IMG/VR virus record: IMGVR_UViG_3300008450_000540
Coordinates: 1-21,568 of that record
Length of the DNA: 21,568 nucleotides
Strand: one strand, 5' to 3'
Origin: a virus
Part shown: positions 8,557 through 21,568 of the stretch, piece after piece
Layout: each line of letters opens with the position of its first letter
Numbering within the stretch: the first letter of the stretch is position 1
Made by a program: the position numbers and the translations under genes
The notes under the pieces: generated by a model
What the model was told of the DNA's origin: nothing
What the model saw: only the letters and a program-made list of their open reading frames with translations
The model's database searches: none

Positions 8557-9969
8557 ATGGGTGCTTACAAGCAATTTCTTACTTCCGATGTAATTACTAC
8601 TCCTCTTAAAGTAAATAAAGAATTTACTTTTCAAGGTAGTTCATCTCTTAACAGTGCATCTATAAGTAGATTTTTAGGTCAAAATGTATATCAATTTGAT
8701 TTTAATCCTAAAATAGATCCATATACTGGAAATTATACTATTGTAACTACTGGAACCACATCCTCAGCCCAATTTAATTTTTTAAACCTTCATTCTCAGG
8801 CTTCAACAGTAGGTTCTAGTTCATTTACTATAAATGATACATTATTTATTATTACTGGAAGTAATAATTTATTACCTAATGGATATAATTTTATATTTGT
8901 TCCATCTGGATCCACAGGAAATGGTACCGGAATTAATATAGTAAATTACATTAATAGTAGTGCTTCTTTTTATTCAGGATTATTTAATATAACATCATCT
9001 AGAACTTCACCATTAATAAATTTATATACTACTACCACAGGTTATATGAATAATTATAATTATGTAGCTTCAGGTAGTACTATTAGTTATTTTTCTAGTG
9101 GATCAAATGATATAATCTCGGGGCCATATCAATATCAAAGATTAGTTTATGATTCTATAAAACAATTATATTATTCAAATTATTTAACTTCATCATATGG
9201 TGACCCAATTAATAAACCTATTCTAGTACCTGGAAGAGATACTGAAGGAGATAGATATATTGGAGCAACTAGTAATCCATCTTATGATAATTTTTTACAA
9301 ACTACATTATCATATGCAAGATATTTTCCTACTTCAACAGGTAGTATAATTGGAGTATTGTCTATTCCTATAACATCATTTGGAGAATATATTGATCCTT
9401 ACTCATTTAAAATGAGTTTTGATGGATTTAATTTTTATGATGATGGTGAAGGAAATATTATATCTGGATCTCAAATAATGGGTAATATTATATATACTCA
9501 CGGTATAGTAGTATTAACTGGAAATCAATATTTAACTAATTGGGCTGTTTCTCAATCTGTGTCAACTAATCTTGGTTCAATTTATGGTAATGCTATTTAT
9601 GGTACTTCATATGTTTATGGTGTTGCTCCTAATGTTCAAACAACTACATTAGGTTTTGCTGTTACAAATAATTTTACTTGTTCATTTTCAAGTTCATATA
9701 CTATATTTGAAAAACAATATAAATGTACTATTAGAGAAAACGAATATAATTTCACTCTAAATCCAAGTACTATCTCAGGTAGTTATAATGTAGGAGTTAA
9801 TTCTGGAGTAGTTTATAGTTTTGTAACAGGATCAGATTTTTCACCTTATATTACAACAGTAGGTTTATATGATGAAGAACAAAACTTATTAGCAATAGGT
9901 AAACTAGCACAACCAGTTCCTGGTTCACCAACAACAGATACAACAATATTAATAAATTTAGATATGTAA
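8557..9969 (+). CDS. Virion protein, 470 residues, partner/paralogue of preceding gene
   Basis: The protein opens with MGAYKQFLTSDVITTPLKVN and is Ser/Thr/Asn/Tyr/Gly-rich, beta-structured throughout. Its C-terminus (about residues 395-470: NEYNFTLNPS, then YITTVGLYDEEQNLLAIGKL and a final ILINLDM) parallels the end of the upstream protein, which has FNYSENPS, TTIGLYNDNNELLAVAKL and VRVKLDF. Shared ends on otherwise different bodies suggest two subunits that plug into the same structure. An ATG four bases earlier (8553) is in another frame, so 8557 is used. The stop overlaps the next ATG (TAATG). Tail or baseplate function is inferred from position. Confidence 0.7.
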   Translation: MGAYKQFLTSDVITTPLKVNKEFTFQGSSSLNSASISRFLGQNVYQFDFNPKIDPYTGNYTIVTTGTTSSAQFNFLNLHSQASTVGSSSFTINDTLFIITGSNNLLPNGYNFIFVPSGSTGNGTGINIVNYINSSASFYSGLFNITSSRTSPLINLYTTTTGYMNNYNYVASGSTISYFSSGSNDIISGPYQYQRLVYDSIKQLYYSNYLTSSYGDPINKPILVPGRDTEGDRYIGATSNPSYDNFLQTTLSYARYFPTSTGSIIGVLSIPITSFGEYIDPYSFKMSFDGFNFYDDGEGNIISGSQIMGNIIYTHGIVVLTGNQYLTNWAVSQSVSTNLGSIYGNAIYGTSYVYGVAPNVQTTTLGFAVTNNFTCSFSSSYTIFEKQYKCTIRENEYNFTLNPSTISGSYNVGVNSGVVYSFVTGSDFSPYITTVGLYDEEQNLLAIGKLAQPVPGSPTTDTTILINLDM

Positions 9970-10397
9970 TGGTTAAATTAATTAACATATTAAAAGAAAT
10001 TATTGATTCTACCCCAGATGTATTATATCATTTTACTCTTCCTAAATTTTTTATTAATGTAATTAATTCAAATACATTAAAATCAGATTCACGCTTTAAT
10101 CAAATATCTTTTACATCAGATCCTGATTTGTGGACATTTAGAGAATTTCCTGAAGAAGATCAAGAGATAGGAATAAGACTTACTTTTAATTCTAAAGATT
10201 TACCTCCATTGAAACCTTTTATTTATAAGGGTCATCCTGATGATGATTATGAATATGAAAAAGAATATATATCAACATCTGGAAATATTAATAATATTAA
10301 TAGTAAAATAAAAGAAATAACAGCTGTTAATTATTATAAAGATTATCTTGAACAAAATTTACCTAAAGAAATATTTAATAAAATTAAATTTATATAG
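9969..10397 (+). CDS. ADP-ribosyltransferase-like protein with capsid-targeting-like N-terminus
   Basis: The 142-residue protein begins MVKLINILKE, a short amphipathic segment ending in L8-K9-E10. This closely resembles the T4 Alt and internal-protein capsid-targeting sequences that are cleaved after (L/I)xE. It is followed by LYHFT (His21), NSNTLKSD and ISFTSDPDLW. That layout fits ADP-ribosyltransferase or RNA 2'-phosphotransferase-like folds (H in the first strand, S/T in the next). An acidic segment with YEYEKEYISTSG, near residues 95-107, could supply the catalytic Glu. The start overlaps the stop of the last tail gene (TAATG), so it is translationally coupled to virion genes. By analogy to T4 Alt, a head-packaged enzyme that modifies host proteins on infection is attractive. 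That role is inference, and the fold assignment is moderate. Confidence 0.5.
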   Translation: MVKLINILKEIIDSTPDVLYHFTLPKFFINVINSNTLKSDSRFNQISFTSDPDLWTFREFPEEDQEIGIRLTFNSKDLPPLKPFIYKGHPDDDYEYEKEYISTSGNINNINSKIKEITAVNYYKDYLEQNLPKEIFNKIKFI

Positions 10398-10399
10398 TA

Positions 10400-10840
10400 A
10401 TGTGGTTATACGAAAATAAAGTTATAGAAAAAATAGAAGATTTTCCTGAAAATACGTTTGGTTTTGTTTATATTACAACTCACATCCCAAGTGGAATATC
10501 TTATATAGGTAAAAAATCACTTTACCATAACATTAAGAAAAAACTTACTAAAAAAGAATTAGCAGAACAATCGGGTCCTGGGCGTAAATCAGCCACTAAA
10601 ATCGTTTCAAAAGAATCGGATTGGAAAACGTATTATGGTTCTGCTAAACCAATATTAGGTTTGTTGAAGGAAAATAAACACGAAGAATTTAAACGTGAAA
10701 TAATAAAAACAGTCACTAGTAAAAAATTATTAACTTACTATGAATGTAAATACTTATTTCATTATAATGTGTTAGAACATCCAGTTGAATATTTCAACGA
10801 TAATATTTTAGGTAAATTTTACTCTAAAGACTTTTTATAG
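10400..10840 (+). CDS. GIY-YIG-like endonuclease, 146 residues
   Basis: The two signature strands appear as GFVY (21-24) and YIGKKS (35-40), spaced as in the GIY-YIG fold. The later candidates for catalytic residues are Arg99 in FKREII, Glu115 in YYECKY, and Asn133 or Asn135 in YFNDNI. The middle has SGPGR and ESDWKTYYGS, which I recall from small phage nucleases of the Seg/homing type. There is no separate DNA-binding domain, so it is a minimal nuclease. It may cut DNA in recombination, repair or host DNA breakdown, or be a small homing endonuclease. It lies 2 bases after the ADP-ribosyltransferase-like gene and before the primase/nuclease pair. The first motif is GFVY rather than GIY, so activity should be tested rather than assumed. 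Confidence 0.6.
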   Translation: MWLYENKVIEKIEDFPENTFGFVYITTHIPSGISYIGKKSLYHNIKKKLTKKELAEQSGPGRKSATKIVSKESDWKTYYGSAKPILGLLKENKHEEFKREIIKTVTSKKLLTYYECKYLFHYNVLEHPVEYFNDNILGKFYSKDFL

Positions 10841-10844
10841 TAGG

Positions 10845-10857
10845 CTAGGCCTTCAAA
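10845..10857 (+). repeat. CTAGGCYTTCAAA element, copy 1 (upstream of primase)
   Basis: CTAGGCCTTCAAA lies in the 40-base gap between the GIY-YIG-like gene and the primase. A 12/13 match lies at 12630-12642 after the nuclease gene. It stands out as locally G+C-rich in A+T-rich DNA. Overlapping it, AGGC-TAG-GCCT (10842-10852) could form a 4-bp hairpin, too short to call a terminator. Confidence 0.4.
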
Positions 10858-10880
10858 AAAATAATTTGTATATTGAAGTT

Positions 10881-11813
10881 ATGTCTAATAATGCTCTAGT
10901 ATTCTTAATCGATTCTGTCTTAGGTAAAGGTAAATCAACATCACGTGGTAACAGAGCTTACCATTGTCCTGAATGTAAACACCATAAACTAAAATTAGAA
11001 ATTAATCTAGAGGAAACATCACCTCATTTTCAATCATACCAGTGTTGGGTATGTGGATTTAAAGGTAAAAAATTATCCACTTTATTTAAAAAATTAGAAA
11101 TAGATTCTAGTAAAATCAGCCAGCTAAAATTATTAGTAAAAACAGACGGTAAACAAATTGAAATTATTAATGATAAAAGAGCAGAGTTACCTAAAGAATT
11201 TATACCATTAACTAACGCCCAATTAAACAGTTTAACTGCAAAAAAAGCAGTATCGTACCTTAAAAATAGAGGTATTACTAAAGAAGATATTATTAAATAT
11301 AATATAGGTTATTGTGAATTTGGTTTATTTTCTAATATGATTGTTATTCCTTCGTACGATGCGAATGGAAATCTCAATTATTTTACCGCAAGAAACTTCG
11401 ATAAAAACTCGTCTATTAAATATAAAAATCCTGACGTAACTAGAGATATCATTGGTTTAGAGCATTTTATTAATTGGAATGTACCTATCATTTTATGTGA
11501 AGGTATGTTTGATGCTATTGCTATTAAACGTAATGCTATACCATTGTTAGGTAAAACAATACAAAAGAGTTTAATGAAACGTATTATCAACTCATCAGTT
11601 GAAAAAATATATATTGCCCTTGACAAAGATGCTATTAAACAAGCATTAAATTTTTGTGAAACGCTAATGAACGAAGGTAAAGAGGTTTATTTAGTGAGTC
11701 TTGAAGATAAAGATCCTAGTGAAATGGGGTTTGAAAAATTTACTAATTTAATTCAAAACACTTTACCATTAACATTCTCGAATTTACTCGAGAAAAAACT
11801 ACAAATATTATGA
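10881..11813 (+). CDS. DNA primase, DnaG/T4 gp61 type
   Basis: The protein makes RNA primers on single-stranded template for lagging-strand synthesis. The N-terminus carries a zinc-binding domain with Cys29, Cys32, Cys55 and Cys58 (CPEC and CWVC), as in phage DnaG-type primases. The TOPRIM core has the acidic residue Glu207 in ILCEGMFDAIAI and the metal-binding Asp248-x-Asp250 in ALDKD. A segment with YLKNRGITKEDI and YNIGYC sits between them, as in DnaG. I chose the ATG at 10881 (310 residues); an in-frame TTG at 10866 would add five residues but has no support. The size is near T4 gp61. No helicase is fused. The end overlaps the next start (ATGA), so the following nuclease is co-translated and may act with it. 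Confidence 0.85.
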   Translation: MSNNALVFLIDSVLGKGKSTSRGNRAYHCPECKHHKLKLEINLEETSPHFQSYQCWVCGFKGKKLSTLFKKLEIDSSKISQLKLLVKTDGKQIEIINDKRAELPKEFIPLTNAQLNSLTAKKAVSYLKNRGITKEDIIKYNIGYCEFGLFSNMIVIPSYDANGNLNYFTARNFDKNSSIKYKNPDVTRDIIGLEHFINWNVPIILCEGMFDAIAIKRNAIPLLGKTIQKSLMKRIINSSVEKIYIALDKDAIKQALNFCETLMNEGKEVYLVSLEDKDPSEMGFEKFTNLIQNTLPLTFSNLLEKKLQIL

Positions 11814-12598
11814 TCGAAAAAGGACAGTCAATACACAAAAAGAGTATTAAAAGAATATTAGAATTTGATGGTGAAGGACAACAAGTAAATTTTTTAGATA
11901 ATCGATTTTATAAACGAAATGATCAATATTATCCATCTGTAACAAGTATTTTACAATATTTTCCTAAAGGTAAATTTTTTGAAACCTGGCTTAAAGATGT
12001 AGGCCATAATTCAGATATTATAGTTAAAAAAGCAGCTGATGAAGGTACTCAAACCCACAGTTTAATTGAACGTTATTTAACGGGTGAAAAAATTGATTGG
12101 TTAGATGATAAAGGACATGCTGTTTGTTCATTATCTGTTTGGCAAATGTTACTTAAATTTGTTGAATTTTGGGAAACTGAAAAACCTGAATTAATTGAAA
12201 GTGAAATTCATTTATACTCAGACACACATAAAATTGCTGGTACTTGTGACTTGGTAGTTAAAATGAGAGATGAGTTATGGGTTTTAGATATTAAAACATC
12301 AAATAGTGTTCATACAAGTTATGATTTACAGTTAGCAGCATATACTACTTGTTGGAATGAAACATTTGAAGAAAAAGTAACCAAAAACGGTATTATTTGG
12401 TTAAAATCATCTAAACATAAAGCCGATAAAAAAGGCGAAAAAATGCAAGGTAAAGGATGGGAAATTATCACATCATCTAGAACCATAGAAGAAAATTGGG
12501 ATTTATTTAATAAAGTATATGACTTATATAAATTGGAAAATCCAAATTCAGAACCATCATTTAATAAATTTCCTGTATCAGTTCAGTTAAATCCATGA
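11810..12598 (+). CDS. PD-(D/E)XK nuclease, RecB/Cas4-like
   Basis: The catalytic core is visible as GTCDLV with Asp147, then VLDIKTS with Asp160-Ile161-Lys162, then a QLAAYTTC motif at about 173-180. This is the RecB-family arrangement (D...DxK...Q-x3-Y). Upstream, SVTSILQYFP and EGTQTHSLIERYL supply the helical part with a conserved His, also typical of this family. No Cys cluster of the Cas4 iron-sulfur type is seen. The probable role is exonucleolytic processing of DNA ends in phage recombination or replication. The start overlaps the primase stop by ATGA, so the two are a coupled pair. A 69-base intergenic region follows. The core assignment is strong, the exact substrate is unknown. Confidence 0.75.
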   Translation: MIEKGQSIHKKSIKRILEFDGEGQQVNFLDNRFYKRNDQYYPSVTSILQYFPKGKFFETWLKDVGHNSDIIVKKAADEGTQTHSLIERYLTGEKIDWLDDKGHAVCSLSVWQMLLKFVEFWETEKPELIESEIHLYSDTHKIAGTCDLVVKMRDELWVLDIKTSNSVHTSYDLQLAAYTTCWNETFEEKVTKNGIIWLKSSKHKADKKGEKMQGKGWEIITSSRTIEENWDLFNKVYDLYKLENPNSEPSFNKFPVSVQLNP

Positions 12599-12616
12599 TT
12601 TCCCGTAACTTTTAAA

Positions 12617-12657
12617 TATTTATAGGAGACTAGGCTTTCAAAGTCTTCTTATTTATA
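12617..12657 (+). promoter_or_regulatory. Intergenic region with two TATTTATA octamers, candidate promoter
   Basis: The 69-base gap before 12668 is the longest in the window. TATTTATA occurs at 12617-12624 and at 12650-12657, the second ending 10 bases before the ATG. Between them is the CTAGGCTTTCAAA element and a 5-bp inverted repeat AGACT/AGTCT (10-base loop). This is the likely start of the transcription unit for the kinase, nucleotidyltransferase and nucleotidase genes. Confidence 0.45.
12630..12642 (+). repeat. CTAGGCYTTCAAA element, copy 2 (downstream of nuclease)
   Basis: CTAGGCTTTCAAA differs at one base from the copy at 10845-10857. The two copies bracket exactly the primase and nuclease genes. 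Possible roles are a regulatory site, an origin-related site, or the scar of module exchange; none is demonstrated. Confidence 0.4.
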
Positions 12658-12667
12658 TTTAGAATAT

Positions 12668-13423
12668 ATGATTAAACTTACTGAGTTATTGCGTGAAGTT
12701 ATGGGTTCGCCTAAAGCTATATTTTTAGCAGGTCCTGCTGGTAGTGGTAAATCATATATCACTAAACAACTATTACCTAGTAATTTTACTACAATAAATG
12801 TTGATGATACTTATGAGGAATTACTTAAAGCTAGTGGTTTAGGTATGAAACAAAAAGATTTTTCACCTGACGAATTATCACAAGCTGCTAAGTTAATGGG
12901 TCAAGCTCAAAAAGCTACCAAAGAAAAATTCGCTCAATCCTCAGTTGAAAGACAAAATCTAATTATAGATGGTATAGGTGGTGCCTCAAAACCACTATTA
13001 AAGAAAAAACAAGAACTAGAAGCATTAGGTTATGAATGTATGATGTTGATGCTTTATGTATCACCTATTACTTCATTACAACGTAATGCTGATCGTGATC
13101 GTAGTTTAATGCCTAGTATAGTATTACGTACTTGGAGAGATGTGAATCAAAATATTGGGACTTATAAACAAGCGTTTGGAGATAAATTTGTTTTAATAAA
13201 TAATGACCCTAAAGATGCTATTAAAGGATTTTCATTAGAATTAATTAAACCATATCTTCAAGCTTCTAAAGCAGTAGGTAAACCTAAAACACCTGAAGAA
13301 CAAGCAAAATCCGAAGCTGAAAAAAATAAACTAAATGCTGATATTGAAACATTAGTTAAGGAGTTACCTGAATTTGATACTTTAGAAAGCGCTAAATCCA
13401 AAATAAATGAATTTATTAGTTAA
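12668..13423 (+). CDS. P-loop kinase (zeta-toxin/AAA_33-like) with capsid-targeting-like N-terminus
   Basis: A Walker A loop, GPAGSGKS, lies at residues 22-29. A Walker B-like strand ending in Asp101 (NLIIDGIGG) follows, then an Arg-rich lid with RNADRDRSLMPS and RTWRDV near 137-155. This is the layout of small-molecule or polynucleotide kinases related to zeta toxin. The first ten residues, MIKLTELLRE, form an amphipathic segment ending in L8-R9-E10, at the same spacing as in the protein starting at 9969. It precedes the kinase fold and is not part of it. The C-terminus (about 205-251) is charged and helical. The end overlaps the next gene by 17 bases. The substrate is unknown: nucleotide, sugar nucleotide or nucleic-acid end are all possible. 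Confidence 0.65.
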   Translation: MIKLTELLREVMGSPKAIFLAGPAGSGKSYITKQLLPSNFTTINVDDTYEELLKASGLGMKQKDFSPDELSQAAKLMGQAQKATKEKFAQSSVERQNLIIDGIGGASKPLLKKKQELEALGYECMMLMLYVSPITSLQRNADRDRSLMPSIVLRTWRDVNQNIGTYKQAFGDKFVLINNDPKDAIKGFSLELIKPYLQASKAVGKPKTPEEQAKSEAEKNKLNADIETLVKELPEFDTLESAKSKINEFIS

Positions 13424-14849
13424 AGAACTTATACAACCCCTACTTGAAGAAACTACTAAAACAGTAGCAATATTCCCAGGCAAATTTAAACCACCTCACA
13501 AAGGTCACTTTGAGGTAGCTAAAAATTTACTTGATAAAGCAGATGAAATAATCATCGCTATTTCACCAGTTGTTGTAGACGGTATTACACCTCAACAAAG
13601 TAAAGCAGTTTGGGAAATGTATAATACATTATTAGACAATAAGTTAAAAATAGAAATAGTAGATAAATCTCCTGTAAAATATACATTAGATACAATTAAA
13701 GAAAATCCAAATATTAATTTTATTCCTGTATTTGGTAAAGGTGAAGAAGATAGATATAAATCACTTACTGGTAAACCAAATGTTAAAATATATGATGGTG
13801 GAACAGTTGAAGAATTAAATGCTAGAGATTTTAGAAAAATGCTAGCAACGGGCCAAGATTTTGACAAATTTTTACCTGTAGGAATAAATAAAGATGATTT
13901 TTTAAATGTATTTTCAAGTGATATCCAAGAAGATATGTCTCAATCAGATCTTGCTTCGATTGAAAAATATGCAGATAAGGAATTAGCACCTATAGATGTT
14001 GATTTTACTAAACATTTCTTTGATAGATTAAACGATCCTAGAAATATTAAACCAATTTCACCAGCTGAACTTATTGGATTTTTTAAACGTTTAGCTCGTA
14101 AGAAAAATGAATTAAATAATTTCATTACCAAATATAGAGAAGTAGTAGCATCGGATAATAGAACTAATATTAATATCCCATTAGTCAGTATGTCTGATAA
14201 AATTATAGCTAAAACTATAATGCGTAAAAAGGATTTTCAATCTCCTGATCCTAAAATTGAATTAAATGAATTAGAAGATTACGAAATAAAATATTGGGCT
14301 ATACATGCTGATGTGTATGATGCATTAAAAAAAGATCCTAATAAAATATATAATTTTTTAAAAACCAAATTAACTGGTGAGCGACTTAAAGCATTAGAAT
14401 ACTTTTATAATGAGTATTACCTAAAACCAGAAAAATTAATGGAAAATTGTGGTTGTATGCATACTCAACAACCTATAGACTTCAGAAGTGCTTTAGCGTC
14501 ATTAACTAAATATATGATGGATCAAGGTTTAAATATTGCACCTTTACCTAAAGTAAAAATCATAAGCAACGATATAGAAAACGCTGAAAACATTTTAGGT
14601 AAGACAGCGTATTATGATCCGAACAATTGTTCAATCACTTTATATACATTAAATCGTCATCCAAAAGATGTGTTACGTTCATATTCACACGAAATGATCC
14701 ATCGTATTCAAGATAACGATGGTAGATTAAATAATGTTAACACTACTAATACTAATGAGGATTCTAACTTACAAGAGTTGGAAAAAGAAGCGTACCTCAA
14801 CGGAAACATAATTTTTAGAAATTGGGAGGATTCAATTAAAAATGTATAA
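13407..14849 (+). CDS. Nucleotidyltransferase fused to HExxH metallopeptidase-like domain
   Basis: Residues 1-15 (MNLLVKELIQPLLEE) are a tag-like amphipathic segment with (L)xE. Residues 19-190 form a cytidylyltransferase-like nucleotidyltransferase with FPGKFKPPHKGH, where His31 and His34 are the HxGH motif. The distal ISSTxxR-type motif is replaced by NARDFRKML (138-146). A middle region has HFFDRLNDPRN (203-213) and KTIMRKKDF (about 272-280), which I associate with a recurrent phage domain of unknown role. The C-terminus has SHEMIH, with His428, Glu429 and His432, and a candidate third ligand Glu461 in ELEKEAY: a zinc metallopeptidase signature. The fold of the front half matches NMN adenylyltransferase and relatives, but the substrate is not determined. 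The multi-domain build is unusual. It overlaps both neighbours, so it is co-expressed with the kinase and the HAD enzyme. Confidence 0.65.
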   Translation: MNLLVKELIQPLLEETTKTVAIFPGKFKPPHKGHFEVAKNLLDKADEIIIAISPVVVDGITPQQSKAVWEMYNTLLDNKLKIEIVDKSPVKYTLDTIKENPNINFIPVFGKGEEDRYKSLTGKPNVKIYDGGTVEELNARDFRKMLATGQDFDKFLPVGINKDDFLNVFSSDIQEDMSQSDLASIEKYADKELAPIDVDFTKHFFDRLNDPRNIKPISPAELIGFFKRLARKKNELNNFITKYREVVASDNRTNINIPLVSMSDKIIAKTIMRKKDFQSPDPKIELNELEDYEIKYWAIHADVYDALKKDPNKIYNFLKTKLTGERLKALEYFYNEYYLKPEKLMENCGCMHTQQPIDFRSALASLTKYMMDQGLNIAPLPKVKIISNDIENAENILGKTAYYDPNNCSITLYTLNRHPKDVLRSYSHEMIHRIQDNDGRLNNVNTTNTNEDSNLQELEKEAYLNGNIIFRNWEDSIKNV

Positions 14850-15372
14850 ACTAACAGATTTATATAAACAATTAAAAGAGGAAGAACAAGCAGCTCAAGT
14901 TTCACAATATAAAATTTATTGTGATATGGATGGTGTGTTATGTGATTTTGACAGACGATTTGAACAATTTGGAGATATGTCTCCTAAAGCATATGGAGCT
15001 AAATATGGTACTAAAAAGTTTTGGGAATTAATAGACAACACAGGTGAACAATTTTGGTCTAAAATGCCTTGGATGCCTGATGGTAAGCAATTATGGACTT
15101 ATATATCAAAATATAAACCTGCTTTACTATCAGCACCATCTATGAATTATTCATCTCGCTATGGAAAAAAATTATGGGTACAAGAAAACATACCTGGTAC
15201 TAAATTAATTTTAGCAAAACGTGAAAATAAAAAAGACTATGCTGATAGAAAATCAATACTTATCGACGATAGAGCCGATAATATTAATGATTGGAATGCG
15301 GCTGGTGGTATTGGAATATTATTTACATCAACATCTCAAACAATAAACGAATTAAAAGAAATAGGATTATGA
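14842..15372 (+). CDS. HAD-family 5'(3')-deoxyribonucleotidase-like phosphatase
   Basis: Motif I is CDMDGVLCDFD with nucleophile Asp28 and Asp30. Motif II is Ser97 in ALLSAPS. Motif III/IV has a Lys-rich LILAKRENKKDY followed by ILIDDRADN with Asp142 and Asp143. This matches the NT5C-type HAD nucleotidases, which remove phosphate from deoxynucleoside monophosphates; a nucleic-acid end phosphatase is the main alternative. The protein is preceded by a 15-residue tag, MYKLTDLYKQLKEEE, which the HAD core does not need. The gene overlaps the upstream gene by 8 bases. A GGGAGG at 14824-14829 lies 12 bases before the ATG and is the only Shine-Dalgarno-like stretch I noticed, perhaps by chance. The end overlaps the next start. 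Confidence 0.72.
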   Translation: MYKLTDLYKQLKEEEQAAQVSQYKIYCDMDGVLCDFDRRFEQFGDMSPKAYGAKYGTKKFWELIDNTGEQFWSKMPWMPDGKQLWTYISKYKPALLSAPSMNYSSRYGKKLWVQENIPGTKLILAKRENKKDYADRKSILIDDRADNINDWNAAGGIGILFTSTSQTINELKEIGL

Positions 15373-16010
15373 GCTTTAAATACAAATTAAAGGAACAAGA
15401 AGAAGGTGGCGGAGAAGAAAGTGGCTTAAAACAATTAAAAGCCAAAACTGAATTAATATTGACTGCTTTAGGAGACTATACCGCTGATAAATTAGTGGAT
15501 ATTATTAATGACCCAAGTAACTTAAAAGGTACATTTGTTTTAAGATCTGAAGGATTAAAGGAACTTGAAAGAAAAGTATTTGGTGATACTAAAGCTAGCA
15601 ATGACGTTAATAAAAATATCTACCAAGAAAATGGTGGTGAATTATACAGTAAAATATTTAAAGAAGTTGGTGGATTTAAAAAGGGTACTCCATTCTTTAA
15701 GAAAAGCAAAACAGGTGATATTGAATTTTACTTCCCAGAAAAAAATAAATACAATTTAGAGTTAATTAAAAAATATTTTGATAAAACTCAATCTAGTGAT
15801 GAAAAATCAGTTAGATCAAGTTTAAATCCTGTTAAAGCAGATGATATGACTTTAAAATTCCAACCTAAAGATGAAACAATCCTTAGTAAAATATTAAAAA
15901 GTGCTAAATTGACATCTGGAAAAGATTATGATTTATCTAAACAAAAATCATTAAATGAAGAATTTAATAATACAGTTAAAGAGCAATTACTGAAGTTACT
16001 TAAAAAATAA
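15369..16010 (+). CDS. Unknown 213-residue phage protein with tag-like N-terminus
   Basis: The open frame extends upstream to 15291, but that part lies inside the HAD gene. The credible start is the ATG at 15369, which overlaps the HAD stop in ATGA-type fashion. The protein begins MSFKYKLKEQEEGGGEES, a basic/hydrophobic segment with L7-K8-E9 followed by a flexible Gly/Glu linker. The rest is Lys-rich and mixed helix/strand, with KVFGDTKASNDVNK, EVGGFKKGTPFFKKSK and IEFYFPEKNK. It ends in a Leu/Lys-rich helix. There is no recognised domain, membrane segment or Cys motif. By context it belongs with the kinase, nucleotidyltransferase and HAD genes and may be another cargo protein. Confidence 0.6.
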   Translation: MSFKYKLKEQEEGGGEESGLKQLKAKTELILTALGDYTADKLVDIINDPSNLKGTFVLRSEGLKELERKVFGDTKASNDVNKNIYQENGGELYSKIFKEVGGFKKGTPFFKKSKTGDIEFYFPEKNKYNLELIKKYFDKTQSSDEKSVRSSLNPVKADDMTLKFQPKDETILSKILKSAKLTSGKDYDLSKQKSLNEEFNNTVKEQLLKLLKK

Positions 16011-16013
16011 ATT

Positions 16014-16583
16014 ATGTCTGAAAACGTTTTAAAAAAGGATTTTAAATCAGCTGATGTTCAACGCCTTCGTAACCTGATGACAGGTAAACAAGGTGAAAGA
16101 ACTAATGGTGGTGTTGGTTATAGCAAGAAAAAAGAATTCCATGAGGAAGGTGATGTGTGGGAAGAAGATGGAAGGCAGTGGACTATCAAAAATGGTATAA
16201 AGCAAAACCTTACTAAATTAGATAAAGCAAAGAAGGAAGTAACTTTGCCGTTATTTTGTCCTTGTTGTTCTAATCTAATGAAAAACAGGTACGATAAATT
16301 ATTTTATATTCAATATAAAAGATGTTTTAATTGTCAAGTAGATTTTGAAACAGATCTTCGCAAACTAGGACTTTGGGAAGAATACGAAAAAAACATTATT
16401 AATTCTGATTTAGACCATATAATTACAGATTACGATATTTGGGTTGATGAAATAATCAACACAACCAATGACTCATTTATTACAGAAGCGGGTGATGTAG
16501 AAAAATGGGTTGGTTCTTCAAAGAAAAAATTATTAGAAAACAAAGAAGAAACAATTAAATATTTACAAAGCCTTAAAAAATAA
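16014..16583 (+). CDS. Zinc-ribbon phage protein of unknown function
   Basis: The central region has two Cys pairs, Cys82-Pro-Cys84-Cys85 and Cys104-x-x-Cys107, separated by about 20 residues with aromatic strands. This is a plausible zinc ribbon. The N-terminal third contains RLRNLMTGKQGERTN and GDVWEEDGRQWTIKNGIKQ, which I recall as a conserved phage family without known function. The C-terminus is a long charged helix ending in TIKYLQSLKK. No tag of the MxKLxxLLKE type is present. Start at the ATG 3 bases after the upstream stop. It may bind DNA or act as an assembly accessory; nothing in the sequence decides this. Confidence 0.6.
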   Translation: MSENVLKKDFKSADVQRLRNLMTGKQGERTNGGVGYSKKKEFHEEGDVWEEDGRQWTIKNGIKQNLTKLDKAKKEVTLPLFCPCCSNLMKNRYDKLFYIQYKRCFNCQVDFETDLRKLGLWEEYEKNIINSDLDHIITDYDIWVDEIINTTNDSFITEAGDVEKWVGSSKKKLLENKEETIKYLQSLKK

Positions 16584-16587
16584 ATGT

Positions 16588-17229
16588 ATGAGTAACATTC
16601 CGGTACCCATAGTAGTAGCTATTATAACAGCTTTAATAACGTCTATAATAGGACCAACTATTTTAGAATGGATAAAACTAAAATTTCTTAACAAAAATAA
16701 TAAAGATATTTTAGGTGAGTCTATTATAAAAGATGAAAAAATAGATTTACAAATTGAACAACTTATGGAAGAATTAGGTTGTAATAGAATATGTATTTCT
16801 CAATTTCATAATGGAGGTAATTTTTATCCAACAGGAAAATCTATTAAGAAATTTAGTATATTTTATGAACGTACTACTAGTGATACTTCATCAATTAAAG
16901 AAACATTTCAAAATATTCCAGTATCCTTATTCCCTAAAGTATTCTCAGTTTTATACAAAGAGGGTGAAGTATCAGTACCTGACACAAGTAGTAATAATAT
17001 AGATTGTGGTTTATTTCCTGTTATTGGTAAGGAATACAATACTAAATCATTTTATTTATTAGCCATTCATGATTTAAATGATAATTTTATTGGTGTATTA
17101 GCTATATCTTATTATGATAACAAATATCAATTAACTTTAGAAGATTGGATATTAGTTAGACAAAAAATAGGAGCTATAGGTAGTATACTAACTGATTACC
17201 TTCATGATAAAAAAATAAAATCTAACTAA
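16588..17229 (+). CDS. Membrane-anchored GAF-like protein
   Basis: Residues 6-26 (VPIVVAIITALITSIIGPTIL) are an N-terminal transmembrane anchor, followed by a basic stretch (KLKFLNKNNK) that should lie in the cytoplasm. The soluble part has a helix and then RICISQFHNGG (72-77 QFHNGG), FYPTGKSIKKFS, and a C-terminal FIGVLAISYYD strand with a closing helix. That layout resembles a GAF-type sensory or ligand-binding domain. No catalytic residues or effector domain are visible. It could sense a small ligand at the inner membrane or serve in lysis timing or superinfection exclusion; these are guesses. The start is the ATG at 16588, since the ATG at 16584 reads into a stop after three codons. It is the last gene before the second TATTTATAACAAAATA leader. 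Confidence 0.6.
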   Translation: MSNIPVPIVVAIITALITSIIGPTILEWIKLKFLNKNNKDILGESIIKDEKIDLQIEQLMEELGCNRICISQFHNGGNFYPTGKSIKKFSIFYERTTSDTSSIKETFQNIPVSLFPKVFSVLYKEGEVSVPDTSSNNIDCGLFPVIGKEYNTKSFYLLAIHDLNDNFIGVLAISYYDNKYQLTLEDWILVRQKIGAIGSILTDYLHDKKIKSN

Positions 17230-17236
17230 AACCGTT

Positions 17237-17254
17237 AATATTTATAACAAAATA
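17237..17254 (+). promoter_or_regulatory. Leader element with TATTTATA (17239-17246), second copy
   Basis: This is an exact 18-base copy of the element at 6847-6864 in a 32-base gap. The octamer ends 15 bases before the ATG at 17262. Repetition at equivalent positions 10 kb apart supports function as a promoter or leader rather than chance. Confidence 0.5.
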
Positions 17255-17261
17255 TACTTAA

Positions 17262-17834
17262 ATGAGCAATCAATTCGAAAAAATGCAAAAGTTGGCTTTT
17301 GGTAAAGTAGTTCAATCTACACCAAAAACATTAACTGAAGGTACACTTAAAGATAAAATTAAAGAACTTGTACATTCATCATTGGGTGAAGCTAAGAAAA
17401 AGAAATCTAAAGACGTAGCTCCACAAGAAGATGTTGATATCAATGTTGATGCTGAAGAAGCACCAATGCCTGATGAAACAACAACGGATGATACATTAGC
17501 ACCATCTGCTCCAAGTGATATCGATATCGATCCTAAAGTTAAATCAATCCAGGATTATTTACAAAAAGCATTTGCTAATGCTAAAGAATTAGGCGACGAA
17601 AAATTAATGACCCAAATCGGTAATACAATCACTATGGTTGTTAGAAACCAAGTATTAGGTGGTCAAGCAGTTGCTGAATCATTAGAGGAAATGGTAGATG
17701 ACAATAATTCTTCAGATAAAGTCAAGTATTTAGCAAGTGCATTAGACACTGTTTGGAAGAGAGGTAGAGGTAATAACAGTATTGATTTTACAAGTATGGC
17801 TAAATCAATTATTGATGATTTAGAAACTTATTAA
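17262..17834 (+). CDS. Acidic phage protein, possible head-core/cargo protein
   Basis: The product is 190 residues. Positions 22-45 contain LTEG (24-27), a helix LKDKIKELV and LGEA (41-44): two sites of the (L/I)xE-small-residue type cut by T4-like prohead proteases. A basic KKKKSK stretch follows, then a long acidic, Ala/Pro/Thr-rich linker at about 50-88. The C-terminal part (about 90-190) is helical, with VKSIQDYLQKAFANAKELG and IDFTSMAKSIIDDLETY. Composition and processing-like sites would suit a prohead core or internal protein, but this is inference. It starts a new unit behind the TATTTATA leader, and the next gene starts 3 bases after its stop. Confidence 0.6.
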   Translation: MSNQFEKMQKLAFGKVVQSTPKTLTEGTLKDKIKELVHSSLGEAKKKKSKDVAPQEDVDINVDAEEAPMPDETTTDDTLAPSAPSDIDIDPKVKSIQDYLQKAFANAKELGDEKLMTQIGNTITMVVRNQVLGGQAVAESLEEMVDDNNSSDKVKYLASALDTVWKRGRGNNSIDFTSMAKSIIDDLETY

Positions 17835-17836
17835 TA

Positions 17837-18286
17837 ATGAAACCTACTCCACGCATACTAGCATTACAAAAACAATTTTTCAACCAATACAAAGCAAATA
17901 AAAAATTTTGGGTTGATAAATATGGTGCCGATGCTGAAAAAGTAATGACTGGAGCCGCGTTTACAAGAGCAAAATCAGCATCCATGAAAGACGATAAACA
18001 ACGAATTAAAGAGATGATTAAAAAGGCCTTAATGGGTCCTGTTAAAGAGGAAGCAATTGACTCAAAAGCATTCATTCAATCTCGCCAATCAGAAGAAAAT
18101 CCTAAAGACGTAGTTAAAATGGATGTTCCATTATTAATTCGTATGTTAGAGTATGCTAGAGAAGATGCTAAAACAGATATGGATTTACATAAAGTAGCTG
18201 AAAACTTAATTCTACTATCTCAAAAAGGTAGAATTTTAGATATGACAGACTACGATAGTATAGTGTCACCTGACGAATCTTTATAA
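17837..18286 (+). CDS. Conserved 149-residue phage protein of unknown function
   Basis: Two segments are recognisable as a recurrent phage family: KYGADAEKVMTGAAFTRAKS (residues 28-47), and VPLLIRMLEYAREDAKTDMD with a following helix and MTDYDSIV at the C-terminus. Between them is a basic amphipathic helix, RIKEMIKKALMGPVKEEA (56-73), much like the N-terminal tags of other proteins here but internal. All-helical and charged, with no Cys or catalytic motif. It sits between two other conserved small proteins with 1-2 base spacing. The function is not known to me; co-occurrence with its neighbours suggests a common structure or complex. Confidence 0.62.
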   Translation: MKPTPRILALQKQFFNQYKANKKFWVDKYGADAEKVMTGAAFTRAKSASMKDDKQRIKEMIKKALMGPVKEEAIDSKAFIQSRQSEENPKDVVKMDVPLLIRMLEYAREDAKTDMDLHKVAENLILLSQKGRILDMTDYDSIVSPDESL

Positions 18287-18287
18287 G

Positions 18288-18797
18288 ATGACTAGAAGCG
18301 AATTAAAAAACAAAATAAAAGAGCTAGTAAAACAAGTTTACTCTAAAACATCTAGTGCTCAATCAGAAATAGACTTAGATAGTCCTTCTGTTGTTTCATT
18401 AGATGATGAAAGATTTCCTGTTTTAGCTAAATTCCCAACACTTAAAAAAACTATTACTGATTTATTAACAGATCAATATGAGTTATTTTTAAAAGACATT
18501 GAATGGGTAGCTCCACGACCAACTACATTTCGTATTATATTAGCAAATGATCAAGTATTTTATCTTACTTACACAGATAGATCTTGGCTTGCTAAAGTAG
18601 AAGGTAAAAAATATTACTTATTAAATTTAAACGAAGAGCAAAATTGTATAGAAGCAATAGCTAGGATTTTATCATACGGTGCTAAGCCAACCCCTGAAAA
18701 AGGAGCAGCACCTGCAGAAACTGCAGCACCTGAATCTCCTGCTCCGGAATCCCCAGCTCCTGAAACACCTGCTCCAGAAGAAACACCAGCTGCATAA
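18288..18797 (+). CDS. Conserved phage protein with Pro/Glu/Ala-rich C-terminal tail
   Basis: The N-terminus, MTRSELKNKIKELVKQVY, is an amphipathic tag-like helix with I10-K11-E12. The core (about 40-130) contains RFPVLAKFPTLKKT, FLKDIEWVAPRPTTFRIIL and GKKYYLLNLNEEQ, a family I recall from uncultured phages with no assigned role. After ARILSYG the protein ends in a low-complexity tail of PESPA-type repeats (about 135-169). Such tails are flexible linkers or surface extensions; here it may connect to, or be displayed on, a larger assembly. The stop overlaps the next ATG (TAATG). Confidence 0.62.
   Translation: MTRSELKNKIKELVKQVYSKTSSAQSEIDLDSPSVVSLDDERFPVLAKFPTLKKTITDLLTDQYELFLKDIEWVAPRPTTFRIILANDQVFYLTYTDRSWLAKVEGKKYYLLNLNEEQNCIEAIARILSYGAKPTPEKGAAPAETAAPESPAPESPAPETPAPEETPAA
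18729..18791 (+). repeat. 15-base tandem repeat coding PESPA/PETPA
   Basis: About four imperfect 15-base units encode PESPA, PESPA, PETPA and PEETPA at the C-terminus of the gene at 18288. The region is markedly richer in C and G than its surroundings, so it should be prone to copy-number change by slippage. Confidence 0.65.
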
Positions 18798-19933
18798 TGG
18801 ATTCATTAGATTTATTTTTTAAAAAATACGCATATAAATTTCCAAAAGGATATCCTGACATGAATAATGAGCAGGATATCAATCTTTTAGCTGATTTATT
18901 AGAAAACTTAGGTATAGATTTGAATGAAAGTAAAGCTTCGGATAGACAAGAGGCTAAAGAAATATTAAAAAAAGAATTAAATTTAACTGATCAAGATTTT
19001 AGAGATAGTGGATTAAACTTCTTTGTATTAGTTCCTAATAACAAACGTTTAGAATTTGTTGATAAAATTGAAAATATAAATACAGGAACAGATAAAAAAT
19101 TTGAATTTAATCCTCAATCAACTGATTTTTCATCAATAGGATATTTTATGTATGGTGAAGCTAAATTTGGTATTAAACCAATTGAAAAACAAGGAGGAAA
19201 ATCAGCTGGATTAGAAAATGAAAATGCTTTTTATAATATTATTACTTCATTATTAAAAGATGGCCCCAAAGATATAAAAATTACAGATGGTAATAAAGAA
19301 GTAGTATTTAAAAACATTACTGAAGTTGAAGAAACAGGTAGAAAAACATCAGGATATTCTAAATCAGATATTGATTTTTTTAGTAATGGAATAAATGAAG
19401 GTGGATTATCACTAAAACAAGATGATGCAGTATATTGGGAATCAGCAGATGTTAGATTTAAAAACGAAGTAAAAAGTTTAATTAATGCTATCATTAGTGG
19501 TAAATTAGGTGACGAAATTTCTTATGTGCCTTTAAAAGACATTAAAGGCAATCCAGATCCTAATATTATACGAATGTATAATAAAAAAGAAAATAAACCT
19601 ATATCAGGTATTATAGTTAAAGATCTCCCACCTCAAAATATACAACAAGTTATTTTTGGCGAAGATAATGTACCTGTAGCTATAAAAAACTGGAGACCAA
19701 GTGATTTTAAAGTAGAAGGAGATACTATTATAGCAAAAGCTAGTAAACTATATACTAATTTAGAAGATGTCGAAAAAGATAATGCACTTCCTATATTAAA
19801 CATCAGACACGATAAAACAAGAAGAGCAACAAAAGGATTAAGAGCTTTTTTACAAACTGAAAAATCATTATACAAAGATTCGTCTTTAACTGGTAGTAAT
19901 ATTGAATTGTCATATAATAAAATAATGTCATAA
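18797..19933 (+). CDS. Possible PD-(D/E)XK-fold phage protein, 378 residues
   Basis: The N-terminus (DLFFKKYAYKFPKGYPDMNN, then LLADLLENLGIDLNE) is helical and recurrent in phage proteins; it also holds an LNE-S site of the prohead-protease type. The middle carries AGLENENAFYNI (around residues 138-149), SDIDFF with Asp191 and Asp193, and LSLKQDDAVYWESAD with Lys207. Glu/Asp followed by a hydrophobic-x-Lys strand fits a restriction-endonuclease-like core, with SLK standing for the usual ExK, so activity is uncertain. The C-terminal third is a basic region ending in TRRATKGLRAFLQTEKS. Start codon overlaps the upstream stop. A nuclease or an inactive nuclease-fold structural protein are both possible. 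Confidence 0.55.
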   Translation: MDSLDLFFKKYAYKFPKGYPDMNNEQDINLLADLLENLGIDLNESKASDRQEAKEILKKELNLTDQDFRDSGLNFFVLVPNNKRLEFVDKIENINTGTDKKFEFNPQSTDFSSIGYFMYGEAKFGIKPIEKQGGKSAGLENENAFYNIITSLLKDGPKDIKITDGNKEVVFKNITEVEETGRKTSGYSKSDIDFFSNGINEGGLSLKQDDAVYWESADVRFKNEVKSLINAIISGKLGDEISYVPLKDIKGNPDPNIIRMYNKKENKPISGIIVKDLPPQNIQQVIFGEDNVPVAIKNWRPSDFKVEGDTIIAKASKLYTNLEDVEKDNALPILNIRHDKTRRATKGLRAFLQTEKSLYKDSSLTGSNIELSYNKIMS

Positions 19934-19941
19934 TATTTATA
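19934..19941 (+). promoter_or_regulatory. TATTTATA octamer directly before start at 19945
   Basis: TATTTATA occupies most of the 11-base gap and ends 3 bases before the ATG. If it is a promoter, the transcript would be leaderless or start inside the gene, so here it may be a leader or processing signal instead, or chance. Confidence 0.3.
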
Positions 19942-19944
19942 ATC

Positions 19945-20853
19945 ATGAATAAAAATACTGCTCAACGTATATCTCATCTTATTAAAGAAGTGTTATCAAA
20001 ACCACTTAAAGAAGACAAATGTAATTGTGGGTGTCACTCATGTGATAACGTAGGTAATAAAGGACCTGTACTTAACGAAAGTTTAGGTACTAAAATTATT
20101 ATGACCGAAAACATGCAATACCATGTTACAAATAAATTACCAATTACAGAAAATACATTCAGATACGGATCAGAAGCATTTTTAAATTTATGGGCTGAAG
20201 CACGTTATTTACATGAACGTAATGCTATACATTTAAATGATGACGATAAAGAATTAGTTGTTGAAACCGATTTAGGCGAATATGGTATGTTTGAAGGTAC
20301 AAAAGTACCTTTAGATTTATTAATGGAAGAAGATTTTGATAGTACATTAGGTAGTGAAGAAGAAGCTAGAGATACAACTAGTATTTTATATATTCCTTAT
20401 ATTGATTTATTAGTTCAAATTGCTAAAGACTATGGTGAAGAAACTGAACTTTATAATGAGGTAGAAAATGCTATTGTCTTTAATAGAACAGAAAAAATAC
20501 CTAACATCTTAAGAAATTACGAAGTAGATAAACAATATGCTGGATTCACTAGAATGAATGAAACAGATAAAAAGAAAACACCAGCATTAGGTAAACCAAA
20601 ACGTGGTGGATCTAAGAAATTTTATGTATATGTAAAAGATCCTAGAACTAAACGTATTAAAAAAGTATCATTTGGAATGGCGGGTGGTGGATTACGTGCT
20701 AAATTAAATAATCCAAAAGCACGTCAAGCATTTGCTAAACGTCATAATTGTGCTCAAAAGACAGATAGAACAAAAGCATCATATTGGAGTTGTAGACTTC
20801 CAAGATATGCTAAATTATTAGGATTTAAAACAACATTCTCAGGATACTGGTAA
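19945..20853 (+). CDS. Cysteine-rich basic phage protein with tag-like N-terminus
   Basis: The first 24 residues form two amphipathic stretches with I13-K14-E15 and L21-K22-E23. They are followed at once by a tight cluster Cys26, Cys28, Cys30, His31, Cys33 (CNCGCHSC), a likely metal site. The middle (about 45-200) is acidic and helical, with GSEAFLNLWAEARYLHERNAIHL. The C-terminus (about 215-302) is very basic: KKFYVYVKDPRTKRIKKVSFG, then RHNC (266-269) and SYWSCR (279-284), a motif I recognise from many uncultured phage proteins. The basic Cys/His C-terminus suggests nucleic-acid binding with metal support. An LNES site occurs near residue 47. Cargo or head-internal function is inferred from the tag only. 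Confidence 0.62.
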   Translation: MNKNTAQRISHLIKEVLSKPLKEDKCNCGCHSCDNVGNKGPVLNESLGTKIIMTENMQYHVTNKLPITENTFRYGSEAFLNLWAEARYLHERNAIHLNDDDKELVVETDLGEYGMFEGTKVPLDLLMEEDFDSTLGSEEEARDTTSILYIPYIDLLVQIAKDYGEETELYNEVENAIVFNRTEKIPNILRNYEVDKQYAGFTRMNETDKKKTPALGKPKRGGSKKFYVYVKDPRTKRIKKVSFGMAGGGLRAKLNNPKARQAFAKRHNCAQKTDRTKASYWSCRLPRYAKLLGFKTTFSGYW

Positions 20854-20854
20854 T

Positions 20855-21235
20855 ATGAACAAAAGTCAATTTAAAAATATTCTTAAAGAAGAAATTCGTA
20901 ATATTTTACGTGAGGATTATGCTACTAAGCTTTATAAAGTAGAGGGTTTATTAGTTACAAACACTAATATAAAAACCCAAACCCAAATACTATCAGATAT
21001 TAGATCAATAACTGGGATAACTACTATTGACTCTAAAGATTATAATGCTAGATTACCTAAACCAGGCTATCAATATGATATTTTAACTGTTAAAATTGAT
21101 CCTTATCCTTATACTAAACAAGGTGGTAAATTTGATATTAATACTATTAATCAAATTATTGATAATATTAAAAAAATTAGAGGTGTAATTAGATTTAAAG
21201 TTGATAATCCTCAATTAATAAATATCGGAATATAA
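20855..21235 (+). CDS. Small phage protein with ferredoxin-like domain and tag-like N-terminus
   Basis: The N-terminus MNKSQFKNILKEEIRNILRE has (L)xE at L10-K11-E12 and at L18-R19-E20, the second directly before the domain. Residues 25-126 (LYKVEGLLVTN, then QILSDIRSITGITTID, then YDILTVKIDPYPY, then a helix INQIIDNIKKIRGV and IRFKV) follow the strand-helix-strand-strand-helix-strand order of a ferredoxin-like fold. No catalytic residues are evident. Spacing is one base from the upstream gene, and the stop overlaps the next start (TAATG). Function unknown; oligomerisation or RNA/DNA binding would suit the fold. Confidence 0.6.
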   Translation: MNKSQFKNILKEEIRNILREDYATKLYKVEGLLVTNTNIKTQTQILSDIRSITGITTIDSKDYNARLPKPGYQYDILTVKIDPYPYTKQGGKFDINTINQIIDNIKKIRGVIRFKVDNPQLINIGI

Positions 21236-21568
21236 TGAAACTAATCGACATATTAAAACAAATGCTTCTTGAAGATCGCTGTAAACGTATTGCTGATCGC
21301 AAGTACAATAAACCATCTGCTTACAAATCAGGTGCTATTGTTAGATGTCGTAAAGGAAATATTTGGAAAGATTTAAAAGAAGAAGATTTAACCGAAAAAC
21401 AAAAAGAAACACTTCGTACTTGGTTCAAACGTAAAGGCCCTAAAGGTAAAGAAGGGGGATGGGTTGATTGTAACACATGTAAAGACGGTTCATGTAAAGC
21501 ATGTGGTAGAAAAAAAGGCGAAAAACGCGCTAAATATCCATCATGTCGTCCTACACCAGCTCAATGTA
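21235..21568 (+). CDS. Cysteine-rich phage protein with tag-like N-terminus, 3' end cut by window
   Basis: At least 111 residues are present; no stop is reached before the window ends. The start ATG overlaps the previous TAA. Residues 1-13, MKLIDILKQMLLE, are the cleanest tag of the set, with L11-L12-E13 followed by Asp. Next come PSAYKSGAIVRCRKG (27-41, Cys38), a charged linker and GWVDCNTCKDGSCKACGRK (75-93, Cys79, 82, 87, 90), then YPSCRPTPAQC (101-111, Cys104, 111). These are recurrent modules of phage proteins that I recall without known function; the YPSCRPTP pattern is distinctive. The many Cys suggest zinc binding, and the high Lys/Arg content suggests nucleic-acid contact. Confidence 0.6.
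   Translation, partial: MKLIDILKQMLLEDRCKRIADRKYNKPSAYKSGAIVRCRKGNIWKDLKEEDLTEKQKETLRTWFKRKGPKGKEGGWVDCNTCKDGSCKACGRKKGEKRAKYPSCRPTPAQC

Follow-up and report, generated by a model that had tools for sequence, protein, structure and literature searches.

Candidate T4-like capsid-targeting leaders on diverse proteins of an IMG/VR virus and its phage relatives

RESULTS

The window analyzed here is the 21,568-base IMG/VR virus record IMGVR_UViG_3300008450_000540 (handle G000; G+C content, 0.28), judged by its content to be a fragment, and a set of its proteins begins with short leaders that end in Leu or Ile, any residue, and Glu ([LI]xE). We conclude that the leaders of this lineage are probably (roughly 0.78 by our estimate) removable N-terminal capsid-targeting propeptides, by which the attached proteins would be packaged, cleaved, and delivered. 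The proposed system works like the capsid-targeting sequence (CTS) of phage T4 but with a larger number of leader types and a wider range of cargo. The leader would act late in infection, when its hydrophobic face (positions −6, −3, and −2 from the cut) would dock an enzyme on the prohead core. Cleavage after (L/I)xE by the S77 prohead protease that the phage itself encodes would follow, and the mature enzyme would stay in the head until it enters the next cell together with the ejected DNA. The leader types, called A, B, C, and D here, would serve this one purpose and be exchanged among cargo genes. Recurrence, position, and Glu specificity of the leaders exceed chance; [LI]xE by itself is poor evidence. 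For comparison, genes were called with an ATG-only caller of our own in Flavobacterium phage vB_FspM_immuto (immuto), the nearest isolate found for the window, and in six IMG/VR records of 150 to 181 kb (seven genomes), and protein families were built by single linkage.

Leader-bearing proteins of the window

The initial annotation had named nine window proteins as carriers of such leaders. All nine are real open reading frames (ORFs) with ATG at the starts given below, and all nine have [LI]xE inside the first 15 residues. A strict register, Phi..Phi[LI].E (Phi, hydrophobic), was present in six of them (9969, 12668, 13407, 19945, 20855, and 21235) and in 0 of the 13 other window ORFs checked; the proteins at 14842 and 15369 have the LxE end and lack the hydrophobic residue at −3. 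The carrier at 18288 stands in part: it has [LI]xE, but it is a weak case, with a homologue in the relative G001 (MTRNELRDKIKLLVKQVYKI) that lacks LxE. A protein outside the original list, at 17262, has a loose likeness to type C and is possibly a tenth carrier. The features are as follows (P1 is the residue before the predicted cut).

9969..9998, + strand: type B leader MVKLINILKE, predicted cut after LKE (residue 10); strict register at P1 = 10; model residues 1 to 11 with pLDDT <50
9969..10397, + strand: cargo whose model resembles the ADP-ribosyltransferase superfamily (KptA/Tpt1- and DarT-like), from AlphaFold2, Foldseek, and VIA
12668..12697, + strand: type B leader MIKLTELLRE (compare T4 gp24, MAKINELLRE), from sequence and register
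12668..13423, + strand: zeta-toxin/P-loop-kinase-like cargo (Zeta_toxin, E = 4.9 × 10−8, above cut-off)
13407..13451, + strand: leader MNLLVKELIQPLLEE, strict register at P1 = 15; fused relatives have a similar segment inside the chain, at the NMNAT junction
13407..14849, + strand: cargo of three modules, NMNAT/cytidylyltransferase (CTP_transf_like, E = 7.1 × 10−7), middle, and zincin-like with HExxH, from module architectures
13923..13931, + strand: internal junction site IQE, P1 residue 175, ahead of the middle module, from junction analysis
14436..14444, + strand: internal junction site LME, P1 residue 346, ahead of the zincin-like module; the stand-alone G001_14823 starts MKKLVNELIKDILQE
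14842..14880, + strand: leader MYKLTDLYKQLKE, from sequence; missing in 5 of 6 homologues outside the lineage
14842..15372, + strand: 5′(3′)-deoxyribonucleotidase (dNT; NT5C, HAD) cargo (NT5C, E = 5.6 × 10−6; phrog_2643, E = 3.2 × 10−29)
15369..15395, + strand: short leader-like start MSFKYKLKE; MSKYKYRLIKE at the homologous G001 position; length akin to leader E, MRIRIKE
17262..17339, + strand: possible divergent type C leader MSNQFEKMQKLAFGKVVQSTPKTLTE, resembling QFxRMQKLAGIITE, outside the strict register
18288..18323, + strand: weak candidate leader MTRSELKNKIKE
19945..20013, + strand: leader MNKNTAQRISHLIKEVLSKPLKE with two LxE sites, in register; in its family of 32 the leaders are B in 15, A in 3, and unclassed in 14
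20855..20914, + strand: type A leader MNKSQFKNILKEEIRNILRE, in register; homologues have type A, type B (L026), or short MRIRIxE leaders
21235..21273, + strand: leader MKLIDILKQMLLE on a Cys-rich protein running off the window, from sequence and register

The claim that the folds behind the leaders are unrelated held for the zeta/P-loop kinase-like, CTP_transf_like, and NT5C matches and for the ADP-ribosyltransferase-superfamily-like model of 9969. The "ferredoxin-like" label of 20855 was not secured, because it depends on a single Pfam match just below the cut-off that overlaps the leader. The HExxH motif in 13407 was read from the sequence, and "zincin" is our reading of that motif.

Recurrence of leaders on unrelated proteins

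We aligned the N termini across the relatives, and the sharing of leaders by otherwise unrelated proteins was borne out: with 411 family representatives used for each set of 30-mers, pairs between unrelated families with a score of at least 46 numbered 77 at the N terminus, 4 internally, and 1 at the C terminus. What had been proposed as one common tag proved to be four recurrent, interchangeable types, most of them in one register. Type A (MKKSELRQIIKEEIxKVLxE) was found in 33 proteins of 23 families, type D (MENFDLKKFLVENKLTxNSKLLxE) in 12 proteins of 11 families, and type C (QFxRMQKLAGIITE) in 9 proteins of 9 families (single-linkage clusters), type B (MIKLxxLLxE) being spread over several small clusters; the next N-terminal cluster (7 proteins) resembles ordinary signal peptides. 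Strong N-terminal pairs also occurred inside single genomes (10 in immuto, 13 in G001, and 7 in G002), and two Bacteroidota crAss-like phages had 0 and 1. A regular expression for the leaders matched 81 of 1,624 ORFs over the seven genomes (10 to 14 in each, false positives included), versus 6 of 976 internal pseudo-N-termini and 1 of 230 ORFs in the two crAss-like phages, which had no PF03420 match. A tblastn search of a phage collection with three leaders found types C and D in four immuto records only, and the type A query had no match; scans of viral contigs with 9969 and 20855 gave 1 and 5 loci, respectively.

Recurrence could also arise if the leaders were functionless hitchhikers of recombination, that is, recently copied 5′ ends, an explanation in keeping with near-identical leaders repeated in one genome, such as the type D leader at four immuto genes. 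We consider it very unlikely, as the immuto type C pair has an amino acid identity of 0.91 versus a nucleotide identity of 0.70, with differences at synonymous sites, and as the 30 bases upstream had identities of 0.53 (type C) and 0.63 in the two pairs compared. This synonymous-site argument is strong for type C only, because in other pairs the nucleotide identity is at least as high as the amino acid identity, and the contrast is weaker or absent for types A and D. A further point against hitchhiking is that one register is common to leader types that share little sequence and to several T4 sites.

Position, register, and glutamate specificity

The whole-genome excess of plain [LI]xE was small (0.28 to 0.38 versus 0.25 to 0.29 over the seven genomes), and we therefore used tests of gene block, position, and P1. 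The block comprised the genes between the primase and the large terminase (TerL) in the seven genomes (157 proteins; rest, 1,291). At residues 5 to 26, [LI]xE was present in 96/157 block proteins versus 343/1,291 of the rest (27%; odds ratio [OR] = 4.35, P value = 2 × 10−17); the excess was confined to P1 residues 10 to 29, with none further in, and [LI]xD showed no excess (OR = 1.2). The register Phi..Phi[LI].E was found in 52/157 versus 80/1,291 (OR = 7.5, P value = 4 × 10−20), a motif written after seeing the sequences, so that register P values are descriptive and not tests. The P1 comparison is a fairer control: replacing E in the register by D, K, Q, N, S, T, R, or A gave ORs of 0.3 to 1.4, and E alone among the nine P1 residues was enriched. 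Counted once per family, the P1 residue of type B was E in 34 of 72 families and D in none, versus 26 (E) and 16 (D) of 277 in the internal control. These counts agree with the statement that processing is inhibited when residue 10 of the IPIII leader is Asp (PMC9026906). In type C, [LIV]xE follows in 20 of 20.

These comparisons bear on two other explanations. Chance would have AT-rich coding give starts rich in Lys, Leu, Ile, and Glu in which [LI]xE is common, and the 27% of N termini outside the block with [LI]xE fit it; the pattern was not seen in internal or C-terminal controls, in the P1 controls, or in the Bacteroidota crAss-like phages, and we give this explanation almost no credence. 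Alternatively, the leaders may be amphipathic helices that dock onto another partner (the membrane, the host polymerase, or a phage protein) and are never cut, LxE being a by-product of amphipathicity. The hydrophobic moment of block N termini is above that of the rest (P value = 3 × 10−8), [LI]xK is mildly enriched in them (OR = 1.69, P value = 0.003), and the TerL N terminus has a similar helix with no cut site. We regard uncut helices as unlikely because of the enrichment of E alone at P1 with no D in type B, the same site in every instance of the less helical-looking type C (LAGIITE), an untagged NTase-like protein that begins right after the site (see below), and two S77-less phages nearly without leaders.

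In T4, the register matches gp23 at E65, IPII and IPIII at E10, gp24 at E10, where we take gp24 to be cut, and gp68 at E21, the last by pattern alone. CTS positions 4 and 7 serve targeting and positions 8 and 10 serve processing, and the cut positions of gp23 and IPIII are given in the same review (PMC9026906); by sequence, the type B leaders at 9969 and 12668 have suitable residues at all four. In representatives of types A, C, and D, the spacing from a Glu is that of the register, and 3 of the 12 listed representatives do not fit.

Two observations concern helices like that of type A. The TerL N terminus of relatives (MSQDLKQIIREEYIKCAQDPAHF; e.g., G001 33326 and G003 118388) resembles it, with no LxE right before the enzyme, possibly reflecting a shared docking partner or convergence. 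A small protein with a long type-A-like helix ending in L-x-E (ILLEA or similar) occurs at G001 3 to 368, immuto 81525 to 81944, G003 84072, G006 15682, G002 144244, and G005 158323; in immuto it adjoins an annotated baseplate assembly gene, so that a tag-like leader also stands at the start of the tail region.

Leaders lie outside the folds and are exchanged

Homologues without the leader supported its being an addition to the fold. Five of six dNT homologues outside the lineage (Cr30, OLIVR1, CcrRogue, XacN1, and Atu_ph07) start at or no more than 10 residues from the catalytic strand, and the sixth (phiM5) is preceded by a long extension; each of the T4-like phages HTVC008M and Melnitz has its own dNT extension, VQE and INE preceding the fold. 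These eight are a sample of 85 matching records from the only family compared outside the lineage, and a scan of genome contigs with the dNT found no relatives. Sequence matches in the PDB began at residue 23 for the dNT (one weak match), at residues 17 to 24 for NMNAT, and mostly at residues 6 to 17 for the kinase, for which they are of little use because some overlap the leader end.

Within the lineage, an NTase-like family reads MISLIKILNEIINE followed by GGNVF in several relatives versus MGGNVF in immuto; the untagged form thus starts just past LxE. Moreover, the same body is found behind different leaders: the GCVMLYFDFPE family has leader B in G001 and G002 and leader C in G006, the DEIGKFFVVEKP body has A or B, the CPLPTQDLELN body has B or D, and the family of window protein 20855 has A, B, or short MRIRIxE.

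HTVC008M (Pelagibacter; L152, 12586 to 20537) and Melnitz (Methylophilales; L153, 10879 to 18465) likewise keep genes of cytidylyltransferase type and for deoxyribonucleotidase in a comparable run, which in HTVC008M also includes a P-loop protein. Several starts in the two phages are LxE ended (MQGFKTFLSE before A; MIPFILKE before G).

Prohead protease and capsid protein in the relatives

A gp21-like protease and prohead core genes were looked for nearby and found in the relatives: beyond the tagged block lie genes for a protease of family S77 (the gp21 family), a scaffold, a portal, and a major capsid protein (MCP) of gp23 type. S77 was found in immuto and in 10 of 16 records that we picked among the sources of the first 80 loci; all six records of 150 to 181 kb are among the 10, and the six misses are records of 50 to 124 kb. 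In G001 the protease gene comes ~18 kb after the last gene with an equivalent in the window, and a PF03420 search of the 21.6-kb window had no match, which is uninformative for a fragment. The proteases of 7/7 relatives match T4 gp21, and their MCPs have Glu at the position of T4 E65 (7/7), followed by A, S, or N at P1′ (7/7).

Multidomain cargo and its junctions

The protein at 13407 is a chain of NMNAT, middle, and zincin-like modules. Among 79 unique proteins, we counted NMNAT plus zincin in 43, NMNAT plus middle plus zincin in 9, and NMNAT plus zincin plus middle in 2; the middle module also occurs apart from the others behind a type A leader (immuto_113188), the zincin-like module does so in G001_14823, and an NTase-like protein is found behind a type B leader. 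We inspected windows of 28 residues round projected module starts (modules whose alignment begins within their first 15 residues; start at residue 40 or later). After near-identical windows were dropped, 42 of 49 junctions contained [LI]xE, versus a frequency of 0.25 in 28-mers drawn at random from these proteins ([LIV]xE before filtering, 70/75 versus 0.29); the corresponding values were 9/49 versus 0.30 for [LI]xD and 23/49 versus 0.41 for [LI]xK. Internal NMNAT junctions retain a leader-like stretch (GLVKELISDLLFEEIT).

From these sequences, we infer that the multidomain cargo proteins may be polyproteins, which the prohead protease would cut apart in the head at LxE junctions. Whether a general export code (Phi-x-x-Phi-(L/I)-x-E) defines a large injected set in T4-superfamily phages, with multidomain members as polyproteins cut at LxE and some junctions keeping a leader inside, is in our judgment a shade short of an even bet.

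ADP-ribosyltransferase-like cargo

The AlphaFold2 model of 9969 has an overall pLDDT of 77.8. The best Foldseek match has an E value of 2.2 × 10−3, with none at 1 × 10−3; VIA gave a Z of 10.0 over 105 residues (root mean square deviation [rmsd] = 3.4; 7yw4) and a Z of 9.5 over 127 residues (rmsd = 4.1; 7omx), values modestly above the Z of 7 to 8 typical of models without a clear match. The protein thus models as a predicted ADP-ribosyltransferase-superfamily-like fold, nearest KptA/Tpt1 and DarT. T4 Alt, which is also ejected, is an ADP-ribosyltransferase (PMC9026906). The protein at 127552 in G002 combines a domain related to 9969 with a zincin-like module as in 13407.

Published cyanophage virion proteomes

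Published virion proteomics agrees in part with a leader function. According to the portions of the reports used here, the S-CREM2 virion contains 52 proteins, 24 structural and 28 others (PMC10665884), and its nonstructural N termini include those of a cytidylyltransferase (MKNFSSFLTE), a SAM hydrolase (MKDFDSFLEE), an APH-like kinase (VKRFDAFLTE), gp13 (MKDLHSFLTE), and gp136 (MQTFSMFFSE). In 215 of the 219 coding sequences, we scored a T4-type motif, [FYL]..[FY][LIFM].E, at residues 1 to 26 and found it in 6/28 nonstructural virion proteins, 0/24 structural proteins, and 1/131 undetected proteins of at least 60 amino acids (one-sided P value = 1 × 10−4); the register Phi..Phi[LI].E was found in 5/28, 0/24, and 5/131, respectively (one-sided P value = 0.016). 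Both patterns were chosen post hoc and these P values are descriptive. In the S-SCSM1 virion, the frozen S-CREM2 motif was not significant (1/19 versus 1/194, P value = 0.17; PMC9602691), the single match being an NMNAT (MKSFLQFLKE). Both studies allow for carry-over contamination, and term searches of their main texts found no mention of targeting sequences or propeptides (PMC10665884, PMC9602691).

A separate observation concerns S-CREM2 gp12 (OR473000, 7704 to 10313), a CRISPR-associated-nuclease (Cas9)-like protein among the 28 nonstructural virion proteins, with RFASFMAE at residues 18 to 25 (Glu at 25) followed by A; this sequence suggests that gp12 may be packaged via a CTS-like start.

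Gene order around the leaders

By our reading, the left part of the window holds tail/baseplate-type genes, none of which is named by PHROGs, and in the right part small enzymes and unknowns surround a DNA primase and an exonuclease. The order shared with immuto is NAD-synthetase-like gp100, primase gp091, exonuclease gp090, gp089, NMNAT gp088, and deoxyribonucleotidase gp087, after which immuto has terminase gp075, portal gp074, prohead protease gp070, and gp23-type capsid protein gp066. From this order, the tagged genes lie upstream of the head genes, which are expected past the right end of the window. The window ORF at 10400 to 10840 has the PHROG name "NAD synthetase" beside a homing-endonuclease match (phrog_7363, E = 4 × 10−8), which makes the former label look doubtful.

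DISCUSSION

Several results weigh against reading the leaders as cleaved capsid-targeting propeptides. The MCP maturation site has Val rather than Leu or Ile at P3 in 7/7 relatives, and P1′ after type B LxE is Ile or Val in 52/101, which is not known to be typical. Type A is the least regular: [LIV]xE occurred in 38/57 families matched by its regular expression, but xK in 24 and xD in 18, and its cut point is ambiguous because it has two LxE sites. The large terminase shares a similar N terminus, the regular-expression matches include two TerL, one primase, and a few other false positives, and [LI]xK shares mildly in the block enrichment. Within-genome pairs were few in G003 (1) and in G004 to G006 (2 each; G004 mid-protein control, 3), and some junction windows are unlike leaders. 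T4 IPI, gp67, and gp22 miss the register, and gp21 residue 72 matches it by pattern alone; the register itself, like the S-CREM2 motif, was defined post hoc, and that motif failed to reach significance in S-SCSM1. One of the five register matches in the S-CREM2 virion (MKKLISELKLTLQTH...) is unlike a leader boundary. In single comparisons, 13407 resembled the cyanophage cytidylyltransferases over 29 residues (E = 5 × 10−4) and 21 residues (E = 0.008); as this likeness is confined to the surroundings of the nucleotide-binding motif, we regard them as enzymes of one kind rather than close homologues. Lastly, we found no virion proteomics for this lineage in the literature, and the papers naming immuto are, by title, not on the virion.

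If the propeptide reading is true, the injected protein set of T4-like phages, uncultured phages included, would be largely predictable from N termini, and the reading would offer an explanation for the NMNAT/cytidylyltransferases and kinases in cyanophage virion proteomes. It would also supply natural alternative leaders for protein packaging as studied in T4 and phage P1, and it predicts, in the isolate immuto, mature N termini just after LxE and polyproteins cut at their junctions. Our literature search, with most subscription journals outside it, found no report that describes leaders of this kind for cyanophages, pelagiphages, or Bacteroidota phages, that gives many enzymes of a single phage lineage several exchangeable families of leaders, or that ascribes CTSs to cyanophage virion enzymes.

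Among the closest known systems are the T4 CTSs (IPI, IPII, IPIII, and Alt) and gp21 propeptides, which likewise have a short N terminus ending in (L/I)xE, of ~10 residues as in type B, hydrophobic residues in a 4/7/8 register with Glu at 10 (IPIII, MKTYQEFIAE; gp24, MAKINELLRE), and a gp21-family protease; the ADP-ribosyltransferase-like cargo has its counterpart in Alt. Unlike T4, the lineage has several leader types and about ten regular-expression-tagged ORFs per genome, and its cargo includes nucleotide- and NAD-related enzymes, many unknowns, and multidomain proteins with internal LxE junctions. The following comparisons draw on portions of the reports cited. With DarB of phage P1, an N-terminal signal suffices to bring a foreign protein into the head (PMC9024508), whereas a consensus is the main feature of the lineage leaders. 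In SPN3US, the prohead protease processes head proteins after a T4-like motif, but several of its propeptides exceed 100 residues (111 to 130), versus about 7 to 26 in the lineage (PMC7411985). Polyvalent proteins similarly mix metallopeptidase, ADP-ribosyltransferase, Pol-beta NTase, and kinase domains and are thought to be packaged with DNA (PMC5512222); for P1 DdrB, autoproteolysis by the metallopeptidase was proposed (PMC5512222), whereas the lineage has junctions with prohead-protease-type sites, and its modules also occur singly with their own leaders. The cyanophages S-CREM2 and S-SCSM1 resemble the lineage in having a cytidylyltransferase/NMNAT in both virions, a kinase in that of S-CREM2, and T4-type CTS starts. 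A CTS packages almost any protein (PMC7697877), and CTSs have been suggested to let T4-like phages take up varied proteins (PMC9026906).

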